A stretch of DNA of 64,000 nucleotides from the NCBI RefSeq assembly GCF_001445655.1, contig NZ_LNBE01000002.1:558001-622000 (forward strand), read 5' to 3'. This document shows, one piece after another, positions 21,676 to 62,214 of this stretch. Made by a program: the position numbers and the translations under genes. The notes beneath the pieces were generated by a model. That model made no database searches, was not told the origin of the DNA, and saw only the letters and a program-made list of their open reading frames with translations. This stretch comes from Streptomyces roseifaciens (lineage in GTDB: Bacteria > Actinomycetota > Actinomycetes > Streptomycetales > Streptomycetaceae). Every line of letters begins with the position of its first letter. Position 1 is the stretch's first letter.

Positions 21676-21784
21676 GCATCGTGCTTGCGGGCGAGCCGGG
21701 CGGCACGAGCCCCCGGGCGGTCCGGGCCGCCGTGCGCCGGTCGCGTCGCGACGAGAGAACAATGACGAGAGGAAACCGCCCGAG

Positions 21785-41041: not shown

Positions 41042-45199
<4,158 letters not shown>

Positions 45200-46099: not shown

Positions 46100-46148
46100 A
46101 ACGTGACGCCGGGCGGGCCGGAATCTCCGGCCCGCCCGGCGTCACGTT
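46100..46148. terminator. strong bidirectional terminator, 23-bp stem
   Basis: Perfect 23-bp inverted repeat (46100-46122 with 46126-46148) with a 3-base loop between the convergent YCII-LuxR and glutamyl-tRNA synthetase genes. One of the strongest hairpins in the window. Confidence 0.9.
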
Positions 46149-46164: not shown

Positions 46165-47835
46165 CTACACGGCGGCACGGGCGGCGGCCGCCGCGGCCGC
46201 CAGCGGGCGGATGCGGCGCAGCAGTTCCGTCTCGCCCAGCGCGCGGGCGATCTGGAAGAGGTCGGGGCTGTGGCCCGTGCCCGTCACGCACACGCGCAGG
46301 ACGTTGATCACCTCGCGCACCGAGCCGTGGAAGGCCTGCGGATCGGCCCTGTAGGTCCGCACGTCCGGCGCGAAGCCGTGCCGCTGTGCGAGGTCGCGCC
46401 ACTGTGCGAACCAGTCCTCCGCGGGCCCGGCGTGGCGGTAGCTGCCGGCGAGGTCGGTGACGAGGCCGGCGACCTGCCCGGCCGGCAGGCCCAGCCGGAG
46501 GTCGTCCAGCGAGTGCACCGGGGTGTGCAGCTCCGGGAAGAAGAACCCGTAGGCCCTGCGGAACTCGCTCCAGCACGCCAGGTCCTTGCGCGGCGTTCCC
46601 GTGCCGTTCCGGCCGATCTCCAGGGCCTGGAGCGCGAGGTCCCGCCGGGCGTGCAGCACGCGGGCGAGCTCGGCGTCGTGCCCCTCGGCCCATGCCGACA
46701 GCTCCCGGAGGGCGTCGCCCGCGGGCAGCGAGGCGATGTAGTCGCGGCTGACCGAGCGCAGCTTGCCCAGGTCCACCATCGGCCCGGCCAGCCCGGCCTC
46801 CTCCAGGCGTACGGGTTCGGTCCGGGCGCGGTCGGCCGGCAGGTCCGCCAGGCGGCTGTTGGCCAGGCCGCGCAGGTAGTGCCGCACCGCTGCGGCCGGA
46901 TACCCCGTGGTCAGGTAGAAGGCGGCCGCGGACTCGGGGTCCTTGCGCTTGCTGAGCTTGCGCCTGCTGGAGCCCTCCACCTTCATCAGCGGGGCGATGT
47001 GGGCGTACTGCGGAGGGGTGAACCCGAGCGCACGGTGGAGCTGGTGGTGCACCGGCAGGGAGGAGATCCACTCCTCGCCGCGGATCACCAGGGTCACGCG
47101 CATCAGGTGGTCGTCGACGACGTGCGCGAAGTGGTAGGTGGGCAGCCGCCGGCCCTGCTCCGCCGACTTGAGGATCACGATGTCGTTGCCGTTGTCGAGC
47201 ATCGTCAGGGCACCGCGGACGCGGTCGCGGAAGCGCACCCGCCCGGGCAGCCCCACGGGGCAGCGGAAGCGGACGGTGAACTCCTCGCCCGCCGCGACCC
47301 GTTCCTGCACCCGGTCCGTCTCCAGCCCGCGGCAGTGCGCCCACTTGCCGTAGTAGCCGATCGGCGAGCGCGTCCGCTGCTGCTCATCCGTGTTCCGCGC
47401 GAGCTGCTCGGGCGAGCAGAAGCACGGGTACGCCAGCCCGTTGCGCACGAGTTCGCGCACGTAGCTGAGGTAGACGCCCTCCCGCTGCGACTGCAGGTAC
47501 GGGCCCCACGCCCCCTGCCGGGTGCCGCCCTCGTCGGGGACGAGGCCGAAGTAGCCGAAGACCCGCTCGAACTCCTCCGCGGCACCTGCGACTTCCCGGC
47601 GCTTGTCGGTGTCCTCGATGCGCACCAGATAGGTGCCGCCGCTGCGCTGCGCCGCCTCCTGGGCGAGCAGGGCCACGTACAGCCCGCCCAGGTGCATCGA
47701 CCCGGTCGGGCTGGGGGCGAAACGCGTCACGTGGGCGTCCGCGGGGAGCCTGCGCGGTGCGAAGCGCTCCTCCCAGACCTCGCAGGAGCGCAGGTCGGCG
47801 GGGAACCACGAATCGATGACGTCACGGTCCTGCAT
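46165..47835 (-). CDS. gltX: glutamyl-tRNA synthetase paralogue
   Basis: 556 residues, class I synthetase. FAPSPTGSMHLGG carries the HIGH motif as HLGG near residue 46. RIEDTDKRREV, YHFAHVVDDHLM and LVIRGEEWISSLP are present, and KMSKS is KLSKR near 293, followed by a helical anticodon-binding domain. All catalytic landmarks are there, so it should charge tRNA-Glu. It differs from the usual bacterial HVG form. Located in a biosynthetic locus with hemA, hemL and hemB paralogues, it likely supplies glutamyl-tRNA for 5-aminolevulinate synthesis. The ATG at 47835 follows GGAAGGA. Symbol given by family; the housekeeping gltX is expected elsewhere. Confidence 0.88.
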   Translation of the reverse strand: MQDRDVIDSWFPADLRSCEVWEERFAPRRLPADAHVTRFAPSPTGSMHLGGLYVALLAQEAAQRSGGTYLVRIEDTDKRREVAGAAEEFERVFGYFGLVPDEGGTRQGAWGPYLQSQREGVYLSYVRELVRNGLAYPCFCSPEQLARNTDEQQRTRSPIGYYGKWAHCRGLETDRVQERVAAGEEFTVRFRCPVGLPGRVRFRDRVRGALTMLDNGNDIVILKSAEQGRRLPTYHFAHVVDDHLMRVTLVIRGEEWISSLPVHHQLHRALGFTPPQYAHIAPLMKVEGSSRRKLSKRKDPESAAAFYLTTGYPAAAVRHYLRGLANSRLADLPADRARTEPVRLEEAGLAGPMVDLGKLRSVSRDYIASLPAGDALRELSAWAEGHDAELARVLHARRDLALQALEIGRNGTGTPRKDLACWSEFRRAYGFFFPELHTPVHSLDDLRLGLPAGQVAGLVTDLAGSYRHAGPAEDWFAQWRDLAQRHGFAPDVRTYRADPQAFHGSVREVINVLRVCVTGTGHSPDLFQIARALGETELLRRIRPLAAAAAAARAAV

Positions 47836-48109
47836 GGCACATCCTTCCGTCGTGCAACGGTGGTGAAGAGAGCGGGTGTCCGGCTGCCGACCCTAGGTCG
47901 CCGCGCCCTCCCGGCCCCGTGCCCGCCGCGACGGTGATGTGGGAACCCGAACCCTCCGCCTTCCGCGACGGCCCGCAGCGCCCGCCGGTGAGCCACGCTG
48001 GTCCCGGCCGCCCCGGTGAAGGGGGCGCCCGAAGAGCCCGACGAGCCGACGAGCCCGTAGAGGCCCAGGAGCCCGAGGGTTCGCGGAGGCCGACGGAAAG
48101 GATGTGGAC

Positions 48110-49315
48110 GTGCTGCGCGTGAGCCTGCTGGCCCTGGGCGCCCTGGCGGTGGGCACCGATGCCTACATGACCGCCGGACTGCTGCCGCAGATCGCCAGCG
48201 ACTTCCACGGGTCCGCCGCGACGGCCGGGCAGCTGGTGACCGTCTTCGCCCTCTCCTACGCCCTCCTCGCCCCGCTCGCGCAGGCCGCGCTGGGACGCCT
48301 GGGCATGCGCCGGACGCTGCTCGTCTCCCTGGCGGTGTTCACCCTGGCCAATGCCGCCGGCGCCGCCGCACCCGGCGTGTTCGCCCTGGCGGGCACGCGC
48401 GTGGCGGCGGGCGCGGCGGCCGGTGTCTTCATGCCCACCGCCGCGGCGGCCGCCGCCCTCCTGGCCGGGCCCGAGCGCCGCGGCCGGGCCCTGGCCCTGG
48501 TCCTCGGCGGGCTGAGCTGCGGCACCGTCCTCGGCGTCCCCGCGGGCCTGCTGCTCGCCGGCCACACCGGGTGGCGCTCCGCCCTGTGGCTGGTGACCGC
48601 CGTCGGCGCCGCCGCCCTCCTGGGCTCGGCCCTCCTGCTGCCCTCCCTGCAGACCCCGCCGCCGCCTTCGCCGGCCGAACGCGTCGCCCAGCTGAAGGAC
48701 CCGCGGACCGCCGCGGCCGTGCTGACGACCTTCTGCCAGACCGTCGCCGGCCTGGGGCTGTACACCTACCTGCTGCCGGTGCTGGAGGCCGCGGGCACGG
48801 GACCCGGCGGCGTCGGGCTGTGGGTGTGGGGGCTGGGAGGCGTCCTGGGAAGTCTCGCCATCGGTCCGCTGCTGGACCGCATCCCCCGCCCCGGCCTGCT
48901 GACCGGATGGCTGCTGGCCGCGCTGGCACTGGTCCTGGCGGCGATCCCCCTGGTCCCCGGCCCGGTGTGGCTGTGGCCGCTGCTGGCCGCGTGGGGCGCG
49001 GCGGGCTGGGCCTTCGTCGTGCCCCAGCAGCACCGCCTGCTGGCCGCCGGGCCCGCCCGTGGCGCCGCGGCCCTCGCCCTCAACAGCTCGGCCACCTACC
49101 TCGGCGGGTCGGCCGGCGCCGCCCTCGGCGGTGCGGCCCTCGCGGCGGGCCTCGCCCCCCGCGCCCTGCCCCTGGCCGCCGCCGGGTGCGCCGTCCTCGC
49201 CCTGGCCGTCCACCTCGCCGGCCTCCGGTACGGGCCCGGGCCCGACGCCCCGCCCGGCTCCGCCGCCCGCACCGTCCCCCGGGACCTGCCGGCGACACCG
49301 CAGCAATCCCCGTGA
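48110..49315 (+). CDS. MFS transporter (drug/arabinose efflux type)
   Basis: 401 residues, 12 membrane helices. Helix 1 contains GALAVGTDAYMTAGLLPQIA, the signature of the DHA1/AraJ-like exporters, and loop 2-3 has LGRLGMRRTLL. It probably exports the product of the surrounding cluster or gives resistance. The GTG at 48110 has GGAAAGG at good spacing; a GTG at 48104 is too close to that site. Divergent from gltX; the next gene, an F420/flavin oxidoreductase, starts 46 bp later. Confidence 0.9.
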   Translation: MLRVSLLALGALAVGTDAYMTAGLLPQIASDFHGSAATAGQLVTVFALSYALLAPLAQAALGRLGMRRTLLVSLAVFTLANAAGAAAPGVFALAGTRVAAGAAAGVFMPTAAAAAALLAGPERRGRALALVLGGLSCGTVLGVPAGLLLAGHTGWRSALWLVTAVGAAALLGSALLLPSLQTPPPPSPAERVAQLKDPRTAAAVLTTFCQTVAGLGLYTYLLPVLEAAGTGPGGVGLWVWGLGGVLGSLAIGPLLDRIPRPGLLTGWLLAALALVLAAIPLVPGPVWLWPLLAAWGAAGWAFVVPQQHRLLAAGPARGAAALALNSSATYLGGSAGAALGGAALAAGLAPRALPLAAAGCAVLALAVHLAGLRYGPGPDAPPGSAARTVPRDLPATPQQSP

Positions 49316-49361
49316 CCAGCCCCCGGCCCCGCACCCGGCCGCGAAACGATCGGAGAAACAC

Positions 49362-50279
49362 GTGAAGTTCGGCGTCAACGTCCCCAACTACGGCCCCGGC
49401 GCGACCCCCGAGACCCTGGGGGAGTGGGCCGGGCGCCTGGAGGAGCTGGGCTACCACCACCTGCTGGTGTCCGACCACGTCGCCCCCACGCCGGAGGTGC
49501 AGCGCCTGTTCGCCGCCCCGTTCTACGACCCCTTCGCCGTGCTGTCCTACCTGGCCGGCACGACCCGCACCATCGGGCTGGGCACCACCGTGACGGTCCT
49601 GCCCTACCGCCACCCCGTCCTGACCGCGCGCATGGCCGCCGCCGTCGACCGGCTCAGCGGCGGCCGCTTCGTCTTCGGCGCCGCCGCCGGCTGGGCCCCG
49701 GCCGAGTTCGCCGCCCTCGGCGTCCCGTACGCCCGCCGCGGGGCCAGGAGCGACGAGTACCTCGCCGTGATCAAGGCCTGCTGGGCGAACGAAGTGGTCA
49801 GCCACCACGGCGAATTCGTCTCCTTCGACCACCTGCACACCGGCCCGTTGCCGCTGCAGCGGCCCGGCCCGCCGGTGTGGGTCGGCGGGCACAGCCCCGG
49901 CGCCCTGCGCCGCGCCGTGCGCTTCGGCGACGCCTGGCACCCCACCTCCGTCACCGCCCGGTGGCTGACCGGCCACGGCCTGCCCGCCCTGGAGAAGACC
50001 GCAGCGGAACTGGGCCTGCCCGTCCCCGCCCTCGTGCCCCGCATCAAACTCCGCGTCACCGCCCGGCCCCTGGGCAACGGCCGGCTGCTGGGCGAGGGCA
50101 GCCTGGAGGAGATCCGCGAGGACCTCGCCCTCCTCGACGCCCTGGGTGCGCCCACCGTCGTCCTCGACCCGACCTTCCCCGGCGAGCCCCGCACCCCCGA
50201 ACGCAACGAACGCGACCTCGAAGCCCTCGAGACCCTCGCCCGTACGGTCATCGACCCGGAACAGCAGCGCCTGCGCTGA
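49362..50279 (+). CDS. LLM-class flavin (F420 or FMN) oxidoreductase
   Basis: 305 residues of the luciferase-like monooxygenase superfamily. KFGVNVPNYG forms the first barrel strand, and LLVSDHV, IGLGTTVTVLPYRHPVLTA, GRFVFGAAAGW and PPVWVGGHSPGALRRAVRFG follow in order. The pattern is of the F420-dependent TIGR-type subgroup rather than true luciferases. It could reduce or hydroxylate a pathway intermediate. The GTG at 49362 has GGAG 7 bases upstream. It is 13 bp before the LysR gene, so co-transcribed. Confidence 0.9.
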   Translation: MKFGVNVPNYGPGATPETLGEWAGRLEELGYHHLLVSDHVAPTPEVQRLFAAPFYDPFAVLSYLAGTTRTIGLGTTVTVLPYRHPVLTARMAAAVDRLSGGRFVFGAAAGWAPAEFAALGVPYARRGARSDEYLAVIKACWANEVVSHHGEFVSFDHLHTGPLPLQRPGPPVWVGGHSPGALRRAVRFGDAWHPTSVTARWLTGHGLPALEKTAAELGLPVPALVPRIKLRVTARPLGNGRLLGEGSLEEIREDLALLDALGAPTVVLDPTFPGEPRTPERNERDLEALETLARTVIDPEQQRLR

Positions 50280-50292
50280 TGTTGCCCGCAGC

Positions 50293-51255
50293 ATGACCAC
50301 ACCCACCCCCGGCGCGGCCCCGGCGCCGCGCCACCCCGACATCGACCTGAGACGGCTGAGAGTCCTCGCGGAGCTCGACCGCCGCAAGACGGTCAGCGCG
50401 GCCGCCGCCGCCCTGCACCTGACCCCCTCCGCCGTGTCCCAGCAACTGGCCGCCCTCTCCAAGGAGCTGGGGGTCCGCCTGACCGAACCGGCCGGCCGCC
50501 GCCTGCGCCTGACCGGCGCCGCCCGCATCGTGCTGCGCCACGCCGAGGAGATCTTCAGCTGGACCGACCGGCTCCACGAGGCGGTTGCCGCCTGGCGCGA
50601 AGGAGAGACGGGCGAGGTGTCGGTGGCCGGCTTCGCCACCACCCTCACCCCGCTGATCCTGCCCGCCGCCGCCCTCCTCAAGGAGAGCCGGCCCCAGCTG
50701 CGCACCACCCTCGCCGAGGTCGACCCGCCGGTCAGCTTCGAGATGCTCGCCGACGGACGCACCGACGTGGTCATCGCCGTCGAGTCGCCCGCCGCTCCCG
50801 CCGGCGACCCGCGGTTCGAGAAGTTCCCCCTCATGCAGGAGGTCTTCGACGTCGCCCTGCCGCTCGGCCACCGGCTGGCGGACGCGTCGACGCTGACGCT
50901 GGCCGACCTCGCGGAGGAGGCGTGGATCTTCGCCACGGCCGGCATGTGCCAGGAGATCCCCCTGGCCGCCTGCGCCGCAGCCGGGTTCACCCCGCGCGCC
51001 ACCCACGCCATCGGCGACTGGGAAGCGACCTTCGCCGCCGTCCGCCACGGCATGGGCATCAGCCTCGTACCGCGCCTGGCCCGCTCCGCGGCCCGTGAGG
51101 GCGTGGTCGTCAAGAACTTCGACGACGCTCCCTGCCGGCAGGTCTTCGCCGCCGTCCGCGCCGGCGACGGCAGGCTTCCCCAGGTCGCAGCCGTGGTCGA
51201 CGCCCTGGCGCAGGCGGCCGCGACGGCCCGCGCGCAGGACGGCGGCGAACCGTAA
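50293..51255 (+). CDS. LysR family transcriptional regulator
   Basis: 320 residues. The N-terminal winged HTH has LRRLRVLAELDRRKTVSAAA, AALHLTPSAVSQQLAALSKE and LGVRLTEPAGRRLRLTGAA. The C-terminal effector domain is a periplasmic-binding fold (LPLGHRLADASTL, VRHGMGISLVPRLA). It resembles the actinomycete branch with a conserved HPDIDLRRL start. It probably controls the MFS/LLM/DMT genes around it and senses a pathway metabolite. No clear ribosome site, consistent with coupling to the LLM gene 13 bp upstream. Confidence 0.9.
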   Translation: MTTPTPGAAPAPRHPDIDLRRLRVLAELDRRKTVSAAAAALHLTPSAVSQQLAALSKELGVRLTEPAGRRLRLTGAARIVLRHAEEIFSWTDRLHEAVAAWREGETGEVSVAGFATTLTPLILPAAALLKESRPQLRTTLAEVDPPVSFEMLADGRTDVVIAVESPAAPAGDPRFEKFPLMQEVFDVALPLGHRLADASTLTLADLAEEAWIFATAGMCQEIPLAACAAAGFTPRATHAIGDWEATFAAVRHGMGISLVPRLARSAAREGVVVKNFDDAPCRQVFAAVRAGDGRLPQVAAVVDALAQAAATARAQDGGEP

Positions 51256-51496
51256 GCGGGCCTTCACGGTCATCGGAAGAATCCCTCGATGGACGCCGCG
51301 GGGGCGGCGGTGTGAGGCTCTTTCCAGAGCCCGGCCGCCGCACATCCCTCCGGGCCTCTGCCCGGCACGGTCGGTCCCGGCGCCGCAACTCCCCCGGATT
51401 TCCTCTGTTGCGCCCGGACCGGCCCTGCCCTCCATGAGACCGAAACGCCCCGAACGGCAGCCATGCCCACGGGGCGCCGCGACGCCGAGGAGAATC

Positions 51497-52444
51497 ATGT
51501 CGAAGGGTGCCGTCCTGCGGCTTTCCGCACTGAGCCTGCTGTGGGGCTCCGTCTTCCTGTGGATCAAAATCTCCGGATACGCCTTCTCCCCCGTGGAGAT
51601 GGTCTTCGTCCGCCTCGTCCTGGGCGCCGGCGTCCTGCTGACCATCGGCATGGCCAAGGGCCAGGGGTTCCCGCGGGACAAGAAGATCCTCGGGCACATG
51701 GCCGTGGCCGCCTTCCTCGGCAACGCCGTCCCCTGGCTGCTGTTCGCCGAGGGGGAGCGCACCGGCTCCAGCAACATCGCCGGCATCGTCAGCGGAACCG
51801 GCCCGGTGTGGACGCTGGGCGCAGCCGTCCTCCTCGGCTCCGAGAAGCGCCTGGGCGCCGCCCGCGGCTGGGGCATGCTCATCGGCCTGCTCGGCGTCGT
51901 CCTGGTCGCCGCCCCCTGGAGCGCGGGCACGCACGCCTCCACCAGCAGCATCATCTGCTTCGTCCTCGGCGCGGTCAGCTTCGGCAGCAGCTTCGCCTAC
52001 GTCGGACGCTTCCTGGCCGGCCGCGGCATCCCCGTCTTCATGCTGGCCGGCGGCCAGCTCGCCATCGCCGCCGTCATGACGCTCGTCGCCGTGCCCTTCA
52101 TCGGCCTCGAACCGGTCGAGTGGCGCACCGACTCCGTCGTCGCCCTGATCATCCTCGGCGTCGTCTGCACCGGCTTCGCCGTCCTCCTCAACACCATCAT
52201 CATCACCAAGGACGGCGCCGCCGCGGCGGCCACCGTCATCTACCTCATGACCGTCGTCTCCGTCGTCCTGGGCGCCGTCTTCCTCGACGAACCGATCGGC
52301 TGGACCGTCCTGCTGGGCACCGCAGCCGTCCTCGCCGCCACCGCCCTGCTGCGCCGCAAGCCCGCCCCGGCCCCCGCCTCCCGGGCCGCCGGTGCCGCCC
52401 CGGCCCCGCAGGTCGGCACGGCCCCGGCCGCCGGCGCGAAGTAG
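51497..52444 (+). CDS. DMT/EamA family transporter
   Basis: 315 residues with ten membrane helices in two EamA repeats: LSALSLLWGSVFLWIKISGY, VFVRLVLGAGVLLTIGMA, VRLGAA-like linkers and IYLMTVVSVVLGAVFLDEPI, which is the typical ninth-helix signature (FLDE). The tail is Ala/Pro-rich. It probably exports an amino-acid-like or aromatic metabolite of the cluster, a second exporter besides the MFS protein. GAGGAG lies 6 bases before the ATG. Confidence 0.9.
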   Translation: MSKGAVLRLSALSLLWGSVFLWIKISGYAFSPVEMVFVRLVLGAGVLLTIGMAKGQGFPRDKKILGHMAVAAFLGNAVPWLLFAEGERTGSSNIAGIVSGTGPVWTLGAAVLLGSEKRLGAARGWGMLIGLLGVVLVAAPWSAGTHASTSSIICFVLGAVSFGSSFAYVGRFLAGRGIPVFMLAGGQLAIAAVMTLVAVPFIGLEPVEWRTDSVVALIILGVVCTGFAVLLNTIIITKDGAAAAATVIYLMTVVSVVLGAVFLDEPIGWTVLLGTAAVLAATALLRRKPAPAPASRAAGAAPAPQVGTAPAAGAK

Positions 52445-52639
52445 CCCTGCCGGCACCGCGCCGACGGCCGCCCCAGGCGGCGTCGCCCCCAGGGGGCGGG
52501 ACCCGGGAAGCATGCACCGCCCCCACGGGCGACATGCCCCGCCGTCCCGCCCCCTTCGCGTCTTCACCCACCCATCCCGCGCCCGCCGGCGGCCCCGCTC
52601 CCCGGCGACCGGGCGCGACGGAACCCCGAGGACTTCGCC

Positions 52640-53182
52640 ATGACCTACGTAGTCGAGCGCACCTTCAGGACCCTGGACAGCCGCTTCGGCCGCCTGTGGA
52701 GCGCCCACGAGGCGTACCTGCACGCCCTTTCCGCCCGCGGCACCCTCATCGGCGGCGGCCCCTGGGACGGCGAAGGAGGGGAGATCCTCCTCATCGACGC
52801 ACCCGACGAGATCTCCCTGCACCGCGCCCTGCGCCCCGACCCCCTCGTCCGCGAATCCCTCGTCGCCCAGTCCCGCATCCGCAGCTGGAACGTCGCCTAC
52901 GGCCGGCCGGGCTTCACCGGCGGGACCGCCCAGAGCCCGCCGCCCGCCGCGGCCGCCCTCACCCCGCACGAGAGGAGGATCGCCCACCTCGTCCTGGCCG
53001 GTCACACCAACAAGGACATCGCCGGGCGCCTGGGCGTCTCCTGCCGGGCCGTCGAACAGCACCTCACCCGCACCTACCGCAAGCTCTCCATCCAGCGCCG
53101 CGCCCAGCTCGCCCCCGCCCTCGGGGCCGCACTGCCCACAGCCCTCGCCCCGGCCCCGCAGCGGGAGCAGCTGACTGCGTGA
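52640..53182 (+). CDS. YCII-like/LuxR-HTH fusion regulator (second copy)
   Basis: 180 residues with the same two-domain plan as the protein at 45530. The YCII-like barrel has SAHEAYLHALSARGTLIGGG, GEILLIDAPDEISLHRAL and DPLVRESLVAQSRIRSWNVA. A Pro/Ala linker precedes the LuxR HTH (LTPHERRIAHLVLAGHTNKD, IAGRLGVSCRAVEQHLTRTY, RKLSIQRRAQLAPAL). It stands directly before the racemase-like/hem operon and may activate it. The ATG at 52640 follows GAGGA. Confidence 0.88.
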   Translation: MTYVVERTFRTLDSRFGRLWSAHEAYLHALSARGTLIGGGPWDGEGGEILLIDAPDEISLHRALRPDPLVRESLVAQSRIRSWNVAYGRPGFTGGTAQSPPPAAAALTPHERRIAHLVLAGHTNKDIAGRLGVSCRAVEQHLTRTYRKLSIQRRAQLAPALGAALPTALAPAPQREQLTA

Positions 53183-53323
53183 TCCCGTAGTGCGAGGCCC
53201 AACGCCCCCGTCATACCGTCCACTTACGCCGCAGGGCACGCGGAACACCCGGCCCGCGGCGACCGAGGACTTCCCGCGGCCGCTGCCGCCGCCATTCACG
53301 CGAGAACAAGGGGGCTTCCTTCC

Positions 53324-54076
53324 GTGACCATGCACAGCACAGCCCGCCTCGGCGTCGTCGTCCCCTCCGGGAACGCCGCCGCCGAGCCGGAGATCGCCCG
53401 GCTCACCGCCCCGGCCATGAACCTGCACACCTCCCGCTTCCCCGTCCTGCCCGGTCACAGCCTGCGCGGACGCCTGGACATCTACAACGAGCAACTGCCG
53501 GACGTCATCGCAGGGTTCGGCGGACTGGCCCTGGACGCCGTCGTCGTGGCGTGCAGCGGCTCGCACTACCTCCTCGACCCCGAGGGCGACCGTGAGCTGT
53601 GCGACCGGATCGCGCAGACGGCCGGCTACCCCGTGGCCTCCTCCACCCTCACCACCCTCGACACGTGCACCGACCTCGGTCTGACCGACATCGTGCTCGT
53701 CTCCCCGTACGAGCCGTGGCTGACCGAACTCTCCCACCAGTACTGGCAGAAGGCCAGCCTGAACGTCACCCGGGTCGTGCCCGTCCGGGCGGGCGAGCGG
53801 TTCTCCCCGTACGACGTCACCACCGACGACCTCGTGCGCCAGGTCGACGCCGCAGGCCTCGCCCAGGACGCCACGCTGCTGTTCACCGGCACCGGCATGT
53901 TCACCTTCGAGGCCCTCCGCCGCATCGGCGACGGCAACGACCGCACGCTGCTCACCTCCAACATCTGCGCCGCCCGGTGGGCCCTCAAGCACACCGATGC
54001 CACGCCCGCCGGCCCGGACGGCGCACTTCCCGGGCCGCTGCAGCGCCTCGCCGACCGCGCCGGAAGCCGGGCATGA
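53324..54076 (+). CDS. maleate isomerase/arylmalonate decarboxylase-like protein
   Basis: 250 residues of the Asp/Glu racemase superfamily, maleate cis-trans isomerase branch: RLGVVVPSGNAAAEPE, VVVACSGSHYL with Cys77 at the first catalytic position, VSPYEPWLTELSHQYW and TLLTSNICAARWALK near the end. The second catalytic Cys expected before that last strand (usually in an SCT-like turn) appears to be Gly/Thr (LLFTGTGMFTFE). It may isomerise, decarboxylate or only bind a dicarboxylate. The GTG at 53324 is used; ATG at 53330 is an alternative. It overlaps the next gene by 4 bp. Confidence 0.82.
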   Translation: MTMHSTARLGVVVPSGNAAAEPEIARLTAPAMNLHTSRFPVLPGHSLRGRLDIYNEQLPDVIAGFGGLALDAVVVACSGSHYLLDPEGDRELCDRIAQTAGYPVASSTLTTLDTCTDLGLTDIVLVSPYEPWLTELSHQYWQKASLNVTRVVPVRAGERFSPYDVTTDDLVRQVDAAGLAQDATLLFTGTGMFTFEALRRIGDGNDRTLLTSNICAARWALKHTDATPAGPDGALPGPLQRLADRAGSRA

Positions 54077-55341
54077 GCCCGATCCGCAACCCGGTCGTCG
54101 TCGTCGGCGCCGGCCCCGTGGGGCTGACCGCCGCCCTCGTCCTGGCCCGCGGCGGGGTCCCGGTCACCGTCCTCGAAGCGGCCGAGCAGCTCTCGACGGC
54201 CTCCAGGGCCTCGACGTTCCACCCCTCCACCCTCGACCTCCTCGACGAACTCGGCGTCGCCGCCCCCCTGCGCGCCGCCGGCCGTGACGTCACCGAGATC
54301 CAGTGGCGCGACGTCGACCGGAACCTCCTGCACCGCCTGTCCTACGCGCCCCTGGAGGGCCGCACCGCTCACCCCTACCGGGTCCATGCCGAACAGGCCC
54401 GGCTGACACCGCTCCTCCTCGACGCCCTCGCCCGCCATCCCCACGCCGAGGTCGCCTTCGGGCACACCGTCTTCGACCTCCGCCAGGGCCCCGACGGCCT
54501 GCGCGTGTGGACCCGCGGCCCCGACGGCGCCCGCGCCCCGCTCGCCGCCCGCCACGTCGTCGCCGCCGACGGCGCCCGCAGCACCGTCCGCGACCTGCTG
54601 CACCTGGACTCCCGGGCCCGCCCCTACCCCTCCTACGCCCTGCGCATCGTCACCGACACCCCGCTCGACGACCTCGTGCCCGGGCTGTCCCCGCTGACCT
54701 ACGTCCGCGACGCGCGCCAGTCCTTCAGCGTGCTGGGCATGCCCGACCACTGGCGCCTGATCCACCGCATCCCCGCCACCACCCCGCGCGACCACGTCAC
54801 CGCCCCGGCGGCCGTCCGGGCCATGGTCGCCCGCAGCCTGCCCGGCGTCGACGCCCGCATCCGCATACGCGACGCCCACACCTACCGCCTGGCCGCCTTC
54901 GTCCTGCCGCAGTTCCGGGCCGGGCGGATCCTGTTCGCCGGTGACGCCGCCCACCTGACGTCCACCGCCGGCGGCATGAACATGAACTGCGGGCTGCACG
55001 ACGCCGTCGCCTACGGCCGCGCCCTGATCCGCCTGTACCGCGGCGAGGCCGCGGACCGCTCCCTGACCACTGTGGCCGCCGCCCGCCGCGCGGCCGTGCA
55101 GGAAGCCGTCATCCCGCGCAGCGAAGCCCGTACCGCCGGCATCGGCGACGCCACGGCCCTGCGCGCCGCCCTCGACGACATCGGCCGCATGACCGCCGAC
55201 GCGGGCGCCCGCACCGACTACCTCGTCAAGGCGTCCCTCCTGGACTGCGCTCCCCGTCCCCGGCGCGCCGCGGCGGCCCTGAACCCCGGGCCCGGCACGG
55301 ACCACGAGCTCCGGCAGCTCGGCACGGACCCCGAGCACTGA
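54073..55341 (+). CDS. FAD-dependent aromatic monooxygenase (PHBH type)
   Basis: 422 residues of the group A flavin hydroxylase family. The N-terminal GxGxxG is in VVVVGAGPVGLTAALVLARG, the DG motif in VVAADGARSTVRDLL, and GRILFAGDAAHLTSTAGGMN contains the GD ribityl-binding motif followed by MNMNCGLHDAVAYG. Such enzymes hydroxylate aromatic rings with NAD(P)H and O2, so an orsellinate- or pyrrole-type substrate from this locus would fit. ATGA overlap with the upstream racemase-like gene. The C-terminal ~100 residues are variable. Confidence 0.9.
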   Translation: MSPIRNPVVVVGAGPVGLTAALVLARGGVPVTVLEAAEQLSTASRASTFHPSTLDLLDELGVAAPLRAAGRDVTEIQWRDVDRNLLHRLSYAPLEGRTAHPYRVHAEQARLTPLLLDALARHPHAEVAFGHTVFDLRQGPDGLRVWTRGPDGARAPLAARHVVAADGARSTVRDLLHLDSRARPYPSYALRIVTDTPLDDLVPGLSPLTYVRDARQSFSVLGMPDHWRLIHRIPATTPRDHVTAPAAVRAMVARSLPGVDARIRIRDAHTYRLAAFVLPQFRAGRILFAGDAAHLTSTAGGMNMNCGLHDAVAYGRALIRLYRGEAADRSLTTVAAARRAAVQEAVIPRSEARTAGIGDATALRAALDDIGRMTADAGARTDYLVKASLLDCAPRPRRAAAALNPGPGTDHELRQLGTDPEH

Positions 55342-55379
55342 CAGGCCGTCACCTGATCGTCATCTGCCTAAGGAACCCC

Positions 55380-56189
55380 ATGCGCATCTGGTTTCACAAG
55401 CACACCGTGGAAGGCCGAATTCCGCTACTGGACCGGTGGTACCGCGAGCACCTTGACGCCATCGCCGCCCCCGGCACGGTCATCGACGTCCACACCCTGC
55501 CCGCCGACACCTACCCCGACAACACCCCCTTCGGCCTGGTCGGCCACCACGCCGCCCAGGTGCTGTTCTCCCAGCACTTCGCCCACGCCGCCGTGCGGGC
55601 CGAACGCGCCGGCTACGACGCCTGGATCACCGCCGCGGGCCAGGACCCGGGCCTGCGCGACGCCCGCCACCTCGCCGGCATCCCCACCCTCGGCTACGGC
55701 GAGAGCTCCTTCTTCCTCTCCGCCATGACCGGCCAGCGCTTCGGGCTCCTGGGCTTCATGCCGCCCCTCGAAGAGCCCATCCGCGCCAACATCACCCGCT
55801 ACGGCCTGGACTCCCACCTGGCCGCCTACGAAGTCGTCCCCGGCGGCTGGGACGGCGTCCACCGTGCCCTCGACGGCGATTGCGACCCCTTCCTCACCGT
55901 CTACACCGAAGCCGCCGAACGCGCCCGCGCCGCGGGCGCCGAGGTGATCATTCCCGCCGAGGGCATCCCCAACGAGATCCTCTGGCACCTCGGCGTCCGC
56001 GAACTCGCCGGCATGCCCGTCGTCGACCCCGCGGGCCTGGCCGTCAAGCTCGCCGAACTGACCACCGAGCTCGGCCGGCTGGGCATCTTCGCCCGGTCCA
56101 CCGCCGGCTACTGGTTCCACCGGCCGCCCTCCGACATCGCACACCACCTCGAAAAGGTATTCCTCGGCTCGATCCTCCAGGGAGCGTGA
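55380..56189 (+). CDS. Asp/Glu/hydantoin racemase-like protein lacking both catalytic Cys
   Basis: 269 residues. The family landmarks are QDPGLRDARHLAGIPTLGYG, FGLLGFMPPLEEPIRANITR and the C-terminal two-domain repeat, as in hydantoin racemases. The normal Cys in A-C-F-G-D-P-G is replaced (ITAAGQDPGL) and the second, in a GCAG-like turn, is replaced by IIPAEGIPNEI. The only cysteine (GDCDP) lies in a loop region. It is therefore probably not a racemase; a lyase, isomerase or binding role is possible. AAGGA precedes the ATG; hemB starts 9 bp after its stop. Confidence 0.75.
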   Translation: MRIWFHKHTVEGRIPLLDRWYREHLDAIAAPGTVIDVHTLPADTYPDNTPFGLVGHHAAQVLFSQHFAHAAVRAERAGYDAWITAAGQDPGLRDARHLAGIPTLGYGESSFFLSAMTGQRFGLLGFMPPLEEPIRANITRYGLDSHLAAYEVVPGGWDGVHRALDGDCDPFLTVYTEAAERARAAGAEVIIPAEGIPNEILWHLGVRELAGMPVVDPAGLAVKLAELTTELGRLGIFARSTAGYWFHRPPSDIAHHLEKVFLGSILQGA

Positions 56190-56198
56190 AAGACCACC

Positions 56199-57221
56199 AT
56201 GAACACCCACCCCACCCTCGGCCCCGCCCCCGCCAGCACCCCCGCCGCGGCCCCCCTGCACCGCCCCCGGCGCCTGCGCCGGACCCCCCAGCTGCGCCGC
56301 CTGACCGCCGAGACCCAGGTCAACGCGAACAACCTCATCCAGCCCCTCTTCCTGCGCGAGGGCATCACCGAGCCCCGCCCCATCCCCTCCATGCCCGGCG
56401 TCTACCAGCACACCCGCGACAGCCTGCGCAAGGCCGCGGCCGAGGCGGTCGCCGCGGGCGTCGGCGGGATCATGCTCTTCGGCATCCCCACGGACAAGGA
56501 CGAGCAGGGCAGCGGAGCCGTCGACCCCGACGGCATCCTCCAGACCGGGCTGCGCGACGTGACCGCCGAGGTCGGCGACGCCACCGTCGTCATCGGCGAC
56601 ATCAACCTCGACGAGTACACCACCCACGGGCACACCGGCGTCCTCGGCGCCGACGGCGACGTCGACAACGACGCCAGCGTCCTGCTCTACGCGCAGGCCG
56701 CCGTCGTCCAGGCCGACGCCGGCGCCCACATCGTCGCCCCCAGCGGCATGATGGACGGCCAGGTCCGCCACATCCGCGCCGCCCTCGACCAGGCCGGCCA
56801 CCACAACGTCGCCATCCTCGGCTACTCCGCGAAGTACGCCTCGCACTTCTACGGGCCCTTCCGCGACGCCGTCGAATCCTCCCTGCAGGGCAACCGGCGC
56901 ACGTACCAGCAGTACCCCGGCAACATCCGCGAGTCCCTGCGCGAGGTCGACCTCGACCTCGCCGAGGGCGCCGACATGGTCATGGTCAAGCCCGCCCTGG
57001 CCTACCTCGACATCGTCCGCCTCATCGCCGACCGCGTCGACGTCCCCGTCTCCGCCTACCAGGTCTCCGGCGAGTACTCCATGATCGAGGCGGCCGCCGA
57101 GCGCGGCTGGATCGACCGCGACGGCACCGTCGTCGAGAGCCTCACCGCCATCCACCGCGCCGGTGCCTCCCAGATCATCACGTACTGGGCCACCGAGTTC
57201 GCCCCGCGTCTGGGCCGCTGA
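56199..57221 (+). CDS. hemB: 5-aminolevulinate dehydratase (porphobilinogen synthase) paralogue
   Basis: 340 residues, complete. The two active-site lysines are in SAKYASHFYGPFR (near 211) and MVMVKPALAYLD (near 264). Substrate-binding Arg lies in QGNRRTYQQYPGN, and QVSGEYSMI and TYWATEFA close the barrel. The metal loop is INLDEYTTHGHTG, with Asp/Thr instead of the Cys triad of zinc enzymes, so a Mg-type centre is expected. It condenses two 5-aminolevulinates to porphobilinogen. It is adjacent to hemA and hemL but no hemC or hemD is present. Confidence 0.93.
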   Translation: MNTHPTLGPAPASTPAAAPLHRPRRLRRTPQLRRLTAETQVNANNLIQPLFLREGITEPRPIPSMPGVYQHTRDSLRKAAAEAVAAGVGGIMLFGIPTDKDEQGSGAVDPDGILQTGLRDVTAEVGDATVVIGDINLDEYTTHGHTGVLGADGDVDNDASVLLYAQAAVVQADAGAHIVAPSGMMDGQVRHIRAALDQAGHHNVAILGYSAKYASHFYGPFRDAVESSLQGNRRTYQQYPGNIRESLREVDLDLAEGADMVMVKPALAYLDIVRLIADRVDVPVSAYQVSGEYSMIEAAAERGWIDRDGTVVESLTAIHRAGASQIITYWATEFAPRLGR

Positions 57222-57256
57222 CCCGCCCTCCCGCCCCGCGCGGCGAACCTCCCTCC

Positions 57257-57296
57257 CCTGCCGGCCGGGTCGGCCCCCCTCCGCCCGGCCGGCAGG
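57257..57296 (+). terminator. hairpin between hemB and hemA
   Basis: Perfect 13-bp inverted repeat (57257-57269 with 57284-57296, 14-base loop) in the 115-bp gap. It could attenuate read-through from hemB into hemA or protect a processed message. Confidence 0.5.
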
Positions 57297-57333
57297 CACC
57301 CCGCTCCCGCCCGTCACACACCAAGGTGCACAG

Positions 57334-57378
57334 ACCGTGGAACGACAGACCGTGGAACAACACACCGTGGAACGACAC
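57334..57378 (+). repeat. three 15-bp tandem repeats at the hemA start
   Basis: ACCGTGGAACGACAG, ACCGTGGAACAACAC and ACCGTGGAACGACAC follow one another without gaps. Each carries an in-frame GTG (57337, 57352, 57367), so translation could start at any unit; together they encode the N-terminal repeats VERQT, VEQHT, VERHT. Confidence 0.9.
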
Positions 57379-58719
57379 ACACCCGACGACAGCCGGCTGA
57401 TGGCCGTGGGCATCAGCCACGCCACCGCCCCCCTCGACCTCCTCGAACGCCTCTACGAGACCCGCCGCCCCCTGGAGGACCTGTCCGCGGACATGGCCGC
57501 CACCGAGGGCCTCGGCGCCTCCCTCGTCCTGTCGACCTGCAACCGGATGGAGGTCTACCTGGAGGCCGCCCCCGGCACCGACCCCGCGCCCGCCGTCTCC
57601 CGCCTGATCGCCGGCCACACCGGCGTCGACGCCGACGAGATCGCCCCCTACGCCTACGTCCGCGCCGCCGACGACGCGCTGCGCCACCTCTTCCAGGTCG
57701 CCGCGGGCCTCGACTCCGTCGTCCTGGGCGAGGACCAGATCCTCGGCCAGGTCAAGGAGGCACTCGACCGCTCCCAGCGCACCGGCACCGCCAGCAAGAC
57801 CCTCAACCAGGCCGTCCAGGCCGCCCTGCGCGCCGGGAAGCGGGCCCGCAACGAGACCGGCCTCAACGAGGCCGGCCGCTCCCTGGCCACCGCCGGGCTG
57901 GCCTTCTTCGAGCGCCTCGTCGGCTCCCTCGACGGCAGGACCGCCCTCGTCATCGGCGCCGGCTCCTTCGGCGGCGTCGTCCTCGCCGCACTGCGCCGCT
58001 CCGGGCTGCGGACCGTCCACATGGCCAACCGCACGCCCGACAAGGCGCAGCGCCTGGCCGAGACAGCCGGCGGCACCGGATACCCCCTGGAGGACATCCC
58101 CCGCCTCCTGGAGGAGGTCGACGTCGTGGTCAGCTGCACCGCCTCCACCACCCCGCTGGTCACCCGCCGGCACGTCGCCGACGCCATGGCTCGCCGGGCG
58201 GGCCGCGAGCTGTACCTGCTCGACCTCTCCCTGCCCCGCAACATCGAGTCCGAGGCCGCGTCCGTGGAGGGCACCGTCCTGGTCGACCTCCAGCGCATCG
58301 CCGCGGAAGGCGGCGACGACGAGCTCTCCGTAGCCAGCGTCGAAGGCGCCCACCGCATCGTCGACACCGAGGTCGCCGACTTCAAGGCCGCCCGGCGCGC
58401 CGCCCGCGCCACCCCGATCCTCGCCGCCCTGCGCACCAGCGCCGCCGAGGCCACCGCCACCGAACTCGACCGGCTCAGCCGCCGCCTGGACGCCATGGAC
58501 AGCGCCGCCCGGCAGGAGGTCGCCCACAGCGTCCGGCGCATCGTGGACAAGATGCTCCACCAGCCCACCGTCCGCGCCCGCCGGCTCGCGGGCGCCCCCG
58601 ACGGCGACGTCTACGTGGACGCCCTGCGCGAACTCTTCGCCCCCGACCACGCCCCCGGCCATGCCGCCCCCACGGCCGCCCCCCTCACCGCCGCCAATGC
58701 TCAGGAGGTCATGGCATGA
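57337..58719 (+). CDS. hemA: glutamyl-tRNA reductase paralogue
   Basis: 460 residues if started at 57337. The catalytic Cys is in LSTCNRMEVY near residue 68. GLDSVVLGEDQILGQVKEAL, the NADPH motif ALVIGAGSFGG, ANRTPDKAQRLAE, DLSLPRNIE and the C-terminal dimerisation spine follow in the order of GluTR. It reduces glutamyl-tRNA to glutamate-1-semialdehyde. The start is unclear: three 15-bp repeats give GTGs at 57337, 57352 and 57367, and ATG 57400 begins the conserved MAVGISH. 57337 is chosen because AAGGTG lies upstream. It overlaps the acyl-CoA ligase gene by 4 bp. Confidence 0.92.
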   Translation: MERQTVEQHTVERHTPDDSRLMAVGISHATAPLDLLERLYETRRPLEDLSADMAATEGLGASLVLSTCNRMEVYLEAAPGTDPAPAVSRLIAGHTGVDADEIAPYAYVRAADDALRHLFQVAAGLDSVVLGEDQILGQVKEALDRSQRTGTASKTLNQAVQAALRAGKRARNETGLNEAGRSLATAGLAFFERLVGSLDGRTALVIGAGSFGGVVLAALRRSGLRTVHMANRTPDKAQRLAETAGGTGYPLEDIPRLLEEVDVVVSCTASTTPLVTRRHVADAMARRAGRELYLLDLSLPRNIESEAASVEGTVLVDLQRIAAEGGDDELSVASVEGAHRIVDTEVADFKAARRAARATPILAALRTSAAEATATELDRLSRRLDAMDSAARQEVAHSVRRIVDKMLHQPTVRARRLAGAPDGDVYVDALRELFAPDHAPGHAAPTAAPLTAANAQEVMA

Positions 58720-60770
58720 GCGCAATATCAGCCCTGTGGAACGCCCGGTCCATCGCCGTCATCGGTGCGACCGAACGCCCCGGCGCCCTCGGCCGCAAGC
58801 CCATGGACTTCCTCCTGCGCCACGGCTACGAGGGCCGCATCCTGCCCGTCAACCCCCGCGGCGGCGAGGTCCTGGGCGTCCCCGCCCACCGCAGCCTCAC
58901 CGACGCCCCGGGGCCCGTCGACCTCGCCCTGATCATGGTGGCGGCCGACCGCGTCCCCGGCGCCGTCGACGACTGCATCACCGCGGGCGTCCCCCTCGCC
59001 ATCATCGCCTCCTCCGGCTTCGCCGAGACCGGCGACGAGGGCACCGTCCTCCAGGACGACCTGGTGGCCCGCGCCCGCGCCGGCGGACTGCGCCTGATCG
59101 GGCCCAACTGCATCGGCGCCGTCAGCTTCAACAACCGTGTCCTGGCCACCTTCAGCCCCCTCTTCGGGGCCGAGAGCGTCCCCTTCGAGCCGGGCACCCT
59201 CGCCTTCGTCAGCCAGAGCGGCGCGCTCGGCTTCGGCGCAGCCAGCCTCGCCCTGCAGCGCGGCCTGCGCCCCGGATGGGTCGTCAGCACGGGCAACGAC
59301 GCCGACGTCACCGCCCTGGAAGTGCTGCGCGAGCTGTCCGCCGAACCCGGGTGCACCGGCCTCCTCGGCTACCTGGAGGACATCCCCGACACCGCCACGC
59401 TGCGCCTGCTCGCCGAGTCCGGCAAGCCCGTGGCCCTGCTGAAGTCGGGCCGCACCGAGGCCGGCGGGCGGGCCGCCGCCTCCCACACCGGCGCCCTGGC
59501 CACCGACGACCGCGTCCTGGACGCAGCCCTGCGCCAGCTCGGCATCGCGCGCGTCGACGACATCGACGAACTCCTCGACGTCGCCCAGGCCTTCGAGTTC
59601 CCCCTGCGCCCCAAGGGCCCCAAGGTGGCGGTCGTCACCACGTCGGGCGGCTCGGGCATCCTGGCCGCCGACGCCGTCGAGGACGCCGGCCTCGAACTGA
59701 GCAGCCTCAGCGCCGAGAGCACCGCCGCCCTCGCCGAGATCGTCCCGCCCTTCGGTGCGGTCGACAACCCCGTCGACATCACCGCGACCGTCCTGAGCGA
59801 CCCGTCGCTGTTCGACAAGTCCCTCGACGTCCTGATCGCCGACCCGTCCGTCGACATCATCATCGCCTGCTTCTGCGTGATGGCCGGCCCCGACGTGGAG
59901 AAGGCCGTCACCGCCCTGTCCAAGGCGGCCCGCAAGGGCGGCAAGCCCATCCTGGTGGCCCGCACCGGAGCCGACTTCCTCGCCCCCGACGCGCCCGCCC
60001 AGCTCCGCGAGGCGGGCCTGCCCGACTACCCCACCCCCGCCCGGGCCCTGCGCGCCGCCTCCGCGCTCTGGCAGGTCAGCCGCCCCCGCCCCACGGCGGC
60101 CGCCCCCGCCGGCGCCGGTGCGCCGGCCCCCGCGCCGGACGCCACCGAGCCGCAGCTCAAGGCCCTTCTGGCGGCCGCCGGAGCCACCGTTCCCCGGGGC
60201 CGCCTCGCCACCGGTCCCGAGGACGCCGCACGCCTGGTGGCCGAGCTGGGCGGCAGCGCCGTCGCCAAGGCCGTCGTTCCCGGGCTGCTGCACAAGTCCG
60301 AGGCCGGGGGCGTCCTCGTCGGCATCACCGAGGACGACGCGCCCGCGGCGTACGACAAGCTGGCCGCTCTCGGCGGCGGCGTCCTCGTCGAGGAGCTCGC
60401 CGCCGACGGCGTGGAGGTCCTCGTCGGCGCCCGCACCAGCACGCTGGGCACCGTCCTGACCGTCGGGCTGGGCGGCATCTTCACCGAGGTCCTCGACGAC
60501 GTCAGCCACCGGCTGCTGCCGCTGGCCCCCGGCGATGCCGAAGCGATGATCGCCGAACTGCGCGGTGCCGCACTCCTGAACGGCGCGCGCGGCACGGCCC
60601 CGGCCGACACCGCCGCCCTCGCCCGTCTCCTGGAGCGGATCGCCCTGACGGTCCAGGACTGGCCCGAGGGCTTCGAGCTCGACCTCAACCCGGTGCGCGT
60701 CATGAAGGACGGCGGGGGAGCGGTGGTCCTCGACGCCGCGTACACGCTGACCACCGGCACCGCCGGCTGA
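58716..60770 (+). CDS. ADP-forming acyl-CoA ligase (acetyl-CoA synthetase ADP family)
   Basis: 684 residues. Domain order is CoA-binding Rossmann ([29 protein letters not shown]), succinyl-CoA-ligase-like ([16 protein letters not shown], and the phospho-His region [14 protein letters not shown]), and a C-terminal ATP-grasp domain ([30 protein letters not shown]). Such fused ligases make or use acyl-CoAs with ATP to ADP and phosphate; they are uncommon in polyketide loci, where AMP-forming ligases are the rule. It may activate 5-aminolevulinate, a dicarboxylate or the polyketide acid. ATGA overlap with hemA indicates coupled translation. Confidence 0.88.
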
Positions 60771-60794
60771 CACCGCCCGCACCCGTACCACCCC

Positions 60795-60828
60795 GGTGGA
60801 GCCGGCGGCCCCGTACGCCGGCTCCACC
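60795..60828 (+). terminator. hairpin between acyl-CoA ligase and hemL genes
   Basis: Perfect 13-bp inverted repeat (60795-60807 with 60816-60828, 8-base loop) in the 115-bp gap upstream of hemL. Terminator or attenuator candidate; hemL may have its own promoter after it. Confidence 0.5.
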
Positions 60829-60885
60829 CCCTCCCGCCGCCCCCGGCCCCTCTCCTGTCCTCTCCCGTCGCGAAAGGCCCGTTCC

Positions 60886-62214
60886 ATGACCGCCCCTGCC
60901 CACCCCGCCCCCACCGGTACCACCGCCATGTCCGACACGTTGTTCGCCCGCGCGGGCCAGGTCATCCCCGGCGGCGTCAACTCGCCCGTCCGCGCCTTCG
61001 GTTCGGTCGGCGGCACCCCGGTGTTCATGGCCTCCGCCCAGGGGCCGTACCTCACCGACACCGACGGCAACCAGTACGTCGACCTGATCTGCTCCTGGGG
61101 GCCGATGATCCTCGGCCACCGCCACCCCGCCGTCATGGACGCCGTCCGGGCGGCCCTCGCGAAGGGCACGTCCTTCGGCACCGCCACCGAGGGCGAGATC
61201 GCCCTCGCCGAGGAGATCACCTCCCGCGTCGCCCCCGTGGAGCGCGTGCGCCTGGTGACGTCCGGCACCGAGGCGACGATGTCCGCGATCCGCCTGGCCC
61301 GCGGGTTCACGGGCCGGACGAAGATCGTGAAGTTCGCCGGCTGCTACCACGGCCACGTCGACGCCCTCCTGGCCGCCGCGGGTTCGGGCCTCGCCACCTT
61401 CGCCCTGCCGGACACGCCCGGCGTGACCGGGGCCCAGGCCGGCGACACCATCGTCCTGCCCTACAACGACCTCGCCGCCGTCGAGAGGGCCTTCGCCGAG
61501 CAGGGCTCCGACATCGCCTGCGTCATCACCGAGGCGGCCCCCGGCAACATGGGCGCCGTCCCGCCCCTGCCCGGCTTCAACCAGGGCCTTGCCGACCTCT
61601 GCCGGCGCCACGGCGCCCTCTACATCTCCGACGAGGTCATGACCGGCTTCCGCGCGGCCCGGGACGGCTGGTACGGGCGGGACGGCGTGGCGGCGGACCT
61701 GTTCACGTACGGCAAGGTCATGGGCGGCGGCTTCCCGGCCGCGGCCTTCGGCGGCCGCGCCGACGTCATGGAGCACCTCGCCCCGGCCGGCCCCGTCTAC
61801 CAGGCCGGCACCCTCGCCGGGAACCCGGTCGCCACCGCCGCCGGGCTCGCCACGCTGCGGCACTGCACCGACGACGTCTACGACCGCCTGGAGACCGTCT
61901 CCGCCACGATCGGCAGCCACGTCTCCTCCGCCCTGGCCGCCGAGGGCGTCGACCACCAACTGCAGTACTCCGGCACCATGTTCTCGGTCTTCTTCGCCTC
62001 CGCGCCCGTCACCGACTACGACGCGGTCAGGGCCACCGAGGCGCACCGCTACCGCGCCTTCTTCCACGCGATGCTGCGCCAGGGCGTCTACCTGCCCCCC
62101 TCGCCGTTCGAGGCGTGGTTCGTCTCCGCCTCCCACGACGACCGTGCCGTGGACCGGGTGCTGTCGGCCCTGCCCGCGGCCGCCAAGGCGGCCGCGGCGG
62201 CGGAAGCGGCCTGA
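60886..62214 (+). CDS. hemL: glutamate-1-semialdehyde 2,1-aminomutase paralogue
   Basis: 442 residues, PLP fold-type [18 protein letters not shown] is the usual start of [16 protein letters not shown] follows, [15 protein letters not shown] binds phosphate, and the PLP Lys is in [17 protein letters not shown] near 277. It converts glutamate-1-semialdehyde to 5-aminolevulinate. All expected motifs are present, so it should be active. GAAAGG stands 8 bases before the ATG. With gltX, hemA and hemB it gives a complete glutamate-to-porphobilinogen route inside the cluster. Confidence 0.94.

Follow-up and report, generated by a model that had tools for sequence, protein, structure and literature searches.

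A conserved Streptomyces cassette with second copies of gltX, hemA, hemL, and hemB that probably serves specialised metabolism

The stretch of DNA analysed here (the window) comprises 64,000 nucleotides of the Streptomyces roseifaciens contig NZ_LNBE01000002.1 (positions 558,001 to 622,000). Its right-hand part contains open reading frames for gltX, hemA, hemL, and hemB, all of them intact. These four genes are dedicated second copies and belong to a conserved cassette of about 15 genes (~46.2-63.9 kb). It is probable, at roughly 0.6, that this cassette is a self-contained specialised-metabolite cluster, which would make its own 5-aminolevulinate (ALA) and porphobilinogen (PBG) by the C5 route and then oxidise the pyrrole. 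The product is probably a small pyrrole-derived compound rather than haem. The gene order is glutamyl-tRNA synthetase (GluRS), MFS, F420 oxidoreductase, LysR, EamA, LuxR, an arylmalonate-decarboxylase-like protein (AMD), a FAD monooxygenase (FMO), a racemase-like protein (RAC), HemB, HemA, an acyl-CoA ligase (ACL), HemL, OsmC, and CaiB, where GluRS and OsmC are encoded on the reverse strand (Table 1). From AMD to HemL all genes lie on one strand; two neighbouring pairs overlap by 4 bp, and the other gaps measure 9 to ~180 bp.

The genome of S. roseifaciens (8.64 Mb, 13 contigs) was searched for second copies, a check named beforehand with the original prediction. There is one further HemA (C7:11238), one further HemB (C7:15303), one close HemL paralogue (C7:27866, 70% identity), and one other GluRS (C4:3032240, 34% identity to the cassette GluRS). 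Twelve more distant class III aminotransferases match HemL at 26-38%. On contig C7 the order is hemA, then hemC, then hemB, with hemL ~12 kb further. Since these other copies exist, a housekeeping role of the four window genes is rejected. The original prediction of intact, paralogous, and dedicated copies is confirmed, and at the level of genes the claim is solid. The set was also said to end at PBG with no hemC in the window. This is supported: HemC as a tblastn query has no match in the window or in C2:621001-661000, ~39 kb past the right end (hemD, hemE, and hemF were not searched separately), and the possibility that hemC lies just past the window is rejected as well.

HemB, HemA, and HemL all score above the curated cut-offs of Pfam and NCBIfam. 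The GluRS sequence is a divergent one, with a strong match to tRNA-synt_1c and a gltX_bact score of 263 bits, under the cut-off of 290. The start of HemA is uncertain, being either ATG 57400 or an upstream GTG at 57337, 57352, or 57367. Just 5' of this ATG, at 57333-57380 of the window, ACCGTGGAACRACA occurs three times in near-tandem, with an in-frame GTG in every copy.

The cassette is conserved as a unit. When GluRS is used as a marker (E ≤ 1e-70), 19 of 392 Streptomyces genomes match, S. roseifaciens itself included, and flanks were examined in 16 of the 18 others (all except G015 and G375). The cassette is syntenic in 14 of these 16. One of the other two, G143, has a remnant (L044/L075) consisting of GluRS, MFS, a partial oxidoreductase and LysR, then OsmC and CaiB, where the part from EamA to HemL is missing. 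The second, G033, has GluRS alone, the rest of the cassette not being seen in its flanks. A cassette is inferred for G015, where GluRS and HemB are 9 kb apart. The carriers thus number 17 of the 392 sampled Streptomyces genomes, one of them inferred.

A scan of genome contigs with RAC as the query gives 26 loci. The two sets are not independent: eight genomes of the 16 relatives are common to both, and locus L100 is G375. The AMD-FMO-RAC-HemB-HemA-ACL core is present in all 26 loci, including those of Lentzea and Saccharothrix. HemL is found in 25, the remaining contig ending before it. GluRS is found in 22; two contigs are cut on the GluRS side, and the loci of Lentzea and Saccharothrix are without it. 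The Saccharothrix cassette has its MFS gene at the opposite end. In Streptomyces sp. NBC_00704 one copy of the cassette is carried by a linear plasmid of 90 kb. Carriers outside Streptomyces (Lentzea, Saccharothrix, and Actinacidiphila) look rare. HemB proteins of at least 75% identity occur, among the matches listed, also in Kitasatospora, kin of Actinoplanes, and Actinosynnema. An even phylum-wide sample of 396 genomes has RAC in two (E ≤ 1e-50), each a Streptomyces. Viral carriage is rejected: of 15 pattern matches to viral contigs, not one codes for a RAC relative. These comparisons carry out the proposed search for the same gene set in other genomes, and support the view that the hem genes stand among regulators, exporters, and tailoring enzymes as parts of one conserved cluster.

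The second copies follow the cassette. HemB was counted in 38 genomes, 17 with the cassette (G015 inferred) and 21 without. All 17 cassette genomes have one HemB outside the cassette besides the copy inside. Among the 21 cassette-free genomes, a single HemB is present in 19; G009 adds a partial match of 54 bits to its one copy, and G017 has no HemB. HemA is present in two copies in 15 of 15 cassette genomes and in one copy in 14 of 14 cassette-free genomes. Because the remnant genome G143 has a single hemA and a single hemB, the cassette looks dispensable for haem.

A maximum-likelihood tree of HemB was built from 61 rows, none of which was dropped (L163, labelled housekeeping, is the Actinacidiphila cassette copy). 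The cassette HemBs form one clade with support of 100/99. Those of Lentzea and Saccharothrix are inside this clade, while the housekeeping HemBs of the same organisms are on the other side of the tree. Both Schiff-base lysines, which mark a porphobilinogen synthase, are kept in 27 of 27 cassette HemBs. The same 27 proteins have Asn136 and Thr146, where the 30 housekeeping Streptomyces HemBs compared (of 37, those available as loci) have Cys at both sites. Alignment to solved PBG synthases places positions 136 and 146 in the metal site, whose residues we take to be ligands. The cassette HemB thus lacks the ligand cysteines of a zinc-type porphobilinogen synthase, and its metal state is predicted to differ from that of the housekeeping enzyme. 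In a protein search with HemB, among the best 120 of 7971 matches, the top 44 have the signatures N-D-T (40), N-D-V (3), and C-D-C (1), and the next 76 have C-D-C (73), N-D-S (2), and N-D-T (1). The N-D-S proteins, P0166 from Streptomyces blastmyceticus and P0165, are ~68% identical to HemB and have another signature free of zinc cysteines. With P0166 as the query, 392 genomes gave no match at E ≤ 1e-158, an outcome that is uninformative. A third, divergent HemB match (201 bits) is found in the Actinacidiphila acididurans genome (L166) besides the housekeeping and cassette copies.

Active-site motifs were scored in the window and the 26 loci, apart from HemA of L083 and L100 and HemL of L078 and L083, which are too broken or cut. 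The STCNR motif of HemA is kept in 25 of 25 scored copies. A second HemA pattern is matched in 11 of 25 because of Asp/Glu variation, and in the form GL[DE]S-xxx-GE it is present in 24 of 24 loci scored. Both SGTEA and GKVMGGG of HemL are kept in 25 of 25. KLSKR of GluRS is found in 23 of 23 and the HIGH-like motif in 22 of 23, the exception being L100, which was matched without its N-terminus. GluRS, HemA, and HemL therefore carry the motifs of a C5 route to ALA, even though GluRS is under the gltX_bact cut-off. In the genome of Lentzea G392 (L167) a single GluRS match was found; it is of the cassette type (54% identity) and lies apart from the cassette. A GluRS type common across other actinobacteria may have given rise to the cassette GluRS.

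From gene content we infer a pathway in which the dedicated GluRS would charge tRNA-Glu, HemA would reduce glutamyl-tRNA to glutamate 1-semialdehyde, and HemL would make ALA. HemB, without the zinc cysteines, would condense two ALA to PBG. FMO may oxidise the pyrrole ring together with the AMD-like protein, after which RAC and the F420 oxidoreductase may tailor the oxidised pyrrole, and ACL and the CoA-transferase would activate a side-chain carboxylate. The product would be exported via the MFS and EamA transporters. The branch point is presumed to be PBG and not ALA, and the later steps, in their sequence as in their chemistry, are to be read in the same conditional way as the enzyme activities and export.

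The tailoring enzymes are the least certain part. AMD scores 20.7 bits with PF17645 against a cut-off of 25.9. It keeps Cys75, and this first catalytic Cys is present in 10 of 11 aligned proteins; the second motif is TGTGM or a near variant, without Cys. RAC has no Cys at either catalytic position of a two-Cys racemase, the aligned residues being Ala86 and either Ala193 or Glu194. Which residues of the aligned racemase targets are catalytic is our assumption. The nearest solved relatives of FMO are PnpA and HspB, both remote, which we take to oxidise aromatic substrates at a ring carbon that bears a substituent. ACL has an ADP-forming 4-hydroxybutyrate-CoA ligase as its nearest solved relative. 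CaiB scores best with succinyl-CoA:mesaconate CoA-transferase, far under the cut-off of that family.

Several of these points weigh against a pyrrole-oxidising cluster. As the usual catalytic cysteines are mostly lost (AMD has one and RAC none), the reactions of AMD and RAC are guesses; they may isomerise or decarboxylate a substrate by a different mechanism. FMO is only a remote relative of PnpA and HspB, and many aromatics are substrates of its family. GluRS is missing from the cassettes of Lentzea and Saccharothrix and is therefore not needed everywhere. Several cassette genes are in pieces in L083 and L100, by sequencing error or decay. The consumption of PBG is presumed, and HemB could serve immunity instead.

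This last point belongs to an alternative where the pathway branches at ALA. The product would then be derived from ALA activated by ACL, and the altered HemB together with extra ALA would guard the producing strain against an ALA mimic that blocks its housekeeping HemB. The metal site, altered in every cassette copy but in no housekeeping copy, is in its favour, as is the resemblance of ACL to short-acid ligases and the place of its gene between hemA and hemL. Alaremycin, a Streptomyces compound, displaces ALA in PBG synthase (PMC12670364). However, neither an ALA synthase nor an acetyltransferase is found among the 20 proteins of 38.5-63.9 kb covered by the Pfam scan, and HemB lies within the biosynthetic run, starting 9 bp after RAC. 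We consider this alternative unlikely. Self-resistance of HemB to an ALA mimic had also been suggested originally; the distinct metal site in 27 of 27 copies agrees with it, but resistance alone needs no GluRS, HemA, or HemL.

The original prediction placed the hem genes inside a polyketide locus and proposed a pyrrole unit joined to a small polyketide; the polyketide synthase (PKS) left of GluRS would then be the core enzyme. Neither is borne out as a general rule. The window shares PKS, a TetR regulator, and a 2-oxoglutarate oxygenase with 2 of the 16 Streptomyces relatives (76-87% identity; PKS 76%). At an identity cut-off of at least 40%, and with 9-29 kb of flank visible on the PKS side, no PKS match borders the cassette in 12 of the 14 relatives that have it complete. 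One Lentzea locus has a ketosynthase-acyltransferase-acyl carrier protein (KS-AT-ACP) polypeptide in the same divergent position, with 50% identity to PKS. Because such identity is usual between unrelated PKS modules, this match is weak evidence and suggestive only. A hybrid whose PKS is conserved with the pyrrole genes is not what these loci show. It is doubtful as an explanation of the cassette, though it could still hold for the S. roseifaciens clade.

Other genes take the place of PKS elsewhere. NBC_00704 and G110 have on the same side a ten-gene block of adenylation, pyridoxal-phosphate (PLP), ACP, acyl-CoA-dehydrogenase, and phosphopantetheinyl-transferase genes. Of 13 genomes tested, 6 have a relative of its PLP gene. 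It lies apart from the cassette in S. klenkii, Saccharothrix, and S. roseifaciens and on separate contigs in two others; in S. rishiriensis it is on contig C1, ~6 kb past the cassette provided that C1 is the same contig. In G307, taken to represent a clade that we label S. venezuelae-like, this side is occupied by RCC1-repeat genes and genes without assignment. With its left neighbour varying in this way, the cassette seems self-contained; in some clades PKS accompanies it as an optional partner, without being part of the core.

HemA and HemL are not known as zinc enzymes, and ~10 further metabolite-type genes are conserved with HemB. Both points count against a zinc-starvation or haem-supply operon, that is, a zinc-independent second front end of haem synthesis for stress, which is very unlikely; the cassette has no hemC, and no zinc transporter is among the 20 scanned proteins. 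A pattern that we take to be zinc-box-like gives two weak matches in the window (at 25514 and inside PKS; 0.33 expected, at least two in 4 of 100 shuffles) and none 5' of the cassette genes, so a Zur-type box upstream of them is rejected. Such a front end has been proposed for HemB2 of Pseudomonas putida, and HemB paralogues without zinc cysteines under predicted Zur control are described (PMC2770081), the cassette HemB showing the same kind of Cys loss.

Table 1. Genes and other features of the cassette and its left border (window positions)
Feature	Position	Strand	Basis or remark
Single-module type I PKS (KS-AT-weak dehydratase-ACP)	41042..45199	-	Pfam; optional cassette partner
LuxR-type regulator left of GluRS	45506..46093	+	PF00196
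Hairpin, 20-bp stem, between converging LuxR and GluRS genes	46102..46146	.	probable terminator
GluRS, dedicated glutamyl-tRNA synthetase	46165..47835	-	PF00749; HIGH-like and KLSKR motifs kept
MFS transporter	48104..49315	+	PF07690
TIGR03619-family F420-dependent LLM oxidoreductase	49362..50279	+	Pfam/NCBIfam
LysR regulator	50293..51255	+	Pfam
EamA/DMT transporter	51497..52444	+	Pfam
LuxR regulator, weak YCII-like N-terminus	52640..53182	+	Pfam
AMD, arylmalonate-decarboxylase / Asp-Glu racemase superfamily protein	53330..54076	+	PF17645 below cut-off
FMO, FAD monooxygenase	54073..55341	+	PF01494; 4-bp overlap with AMD
RAC, Asp/Glu/hydantoin-racemase-like protein	55380..56189	+	PF01177
HemB, porphobilinogen synthase, second copy	56199..57221	+	NF006762 passed; both Schiff lysines kept
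HemA, glutamyl-tRNA reductase, second copy	57400..58719	+	TIGR01035 passed
ACL, ADP-forming acyl-CoA ligase	58716..60770	+	4-bp overlap with HemA
HemL, glutamate-1-semialdehyde aminomutase, second copy	60886..62214	+	TIGR00713 passed; ATG 60886 is the likely start
OsmC-like protein	62283..62675	-	Pfam
CaiB-like family III CoA-transferase	62826..63899	+	right-hand end of conserved block

The LuxR-type gene left of GluRS is present in the window and in 4 of the 14 syntenic relatives, which are only the two clades nearest to the window. Between LuxR and AMD, locus L045 has a 144-aa protein without a Pfam match (15933-16367) that is absent from the window and has relatives in nine other loci (G162, G185, G224, G249, G270, G291, G299, G318, and G335). 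A tRNA gene travelling with GluRS is rejected, since the four ARAGORN hits in the window and 16 loci are all intragenic and none is tRNA-Glu. Among them, a tRNA-Cys at 36729-36819 of the window sits inside a 1100-aa open reading frame and is probably spurious. A run of small open reading frames left of PKS (21355-24780) presumably resembles a gas-vesicle (gvp) gene cluster.

AMD and FMO relatives are also found apart from the cassette. They are adjacent in Nonomuraea and in a plasmid of Shinella, and within 4 kb of each other in Roseomonas, where the AMD match is weak (31% over 58%). In Shinella and Roseomonas the locus contains, in addition, genes of the isochorismatase, amidohydrolase, aconitase or isopropylmalate-dehydratase, and lyase types. 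By analogy, this gene content suggests a catabolism of the heterocycle-to-maleate type, following nicotinate-like logic. On the plasmid of Shinella sp. WSC3-e (L175, 10776-17793), the AMD and FMO homologues are accompanied by a class III aminotransferase with 35% identity to HemL and by a true hemC (PF01379); a pathway touching PBG is possible there. Four other loci (L177, L178, L179, and L180) have AMD relatives (44-54%) in divergent orientation beside glutamate-reducing genes of the RimK/ArgC type. Two of these loci are on Streptomyces plasmids, where LysW and ArgB- and LeuA-type genes are named, and two on Rhodococcus plasmids.

Extra hem genes are known from another specialised-metabolite cluster. 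Tolyporphin cluster BGC-1 of cyanobacterium HT-58-2 contains additional hemA, hemL, and hemB, and transport genes are found in both BGC-1 and the cassette (PMC10459692). In the account given there, BGC-1 has no gltX and leads on to a tetrapyrrole by way of hemC, hemE, and two hemF genes, whereas the cassette has gltX and no hemC match. A tolyporphin-type tetrapyrrole would call for hemC and later genes; hemC is absent from both regions searched (hemE and hemF were not searched). Manumycin-type C5N metabolites likewise draw ALA into actinomycete specialised metabolism, but their clusters use a C4 ALA synthase, the reverse of a duplicated C5 route (PMC4525017). Neither a cyclizing ALA synthase nor an amide synthetase of the C5N type is among the 20 scanned proteins. 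The alaremycin pathway is said to use an ALA-synthase-like enzyme and no hemA/hemL/gltX set. What it has in common with the cassette is an ALA-related Streptomyces metabolism; its product acts on PBG synthase (PMC12670364). In aminoacyl-tRNA-dependent products such as valanimycin, a charged tRNA is likewise diverted to a metabolite, but these pathways involve a GNAT-fold transferase, unlike the cassette (PMC12945691). The main text of that paper, a review, contains none of the terms glutamyl-tRNA, HemA, and aminolevulin. Like the cassette HemB, the HemB2 of P. putida, putatively regulated by Zur, is a second HemB without zinc Cys (PMC2770081), but the pattern search of the window found no zinc-regulatory context at the cassette. 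No description of such a cluster was found among the matches listed in the literature searched, in which subscription literature is little covered.

With a little less than even odds, the cassette may be the sign of a new actinobacterial natural-product family built on PBG, with a charged-tRNA start, a dedicated line from glutamate to PBG, a putative zinc-independent PBG synthase, and a flavin-dependent diversion instead of a tetrapyrrole. In an actinomycete example, the C5 route is assigned to primary metabolism and a separate ALA synthase to metabolites (PMC4525017). If the proposed role is true, the cassette would be a counter-example to the C5 route being reserved for primary metabolism in actinomycetes. 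Since the conserved block has no PKS or nonribosomal peptide synthetase gene, cluster searches keyed to such genes may miss it. The cassette also provides a glutamyl-tRNA synthetase of its own and, in its HemB, a naturally occurring test case of PBG synthase without zinc cysteines.

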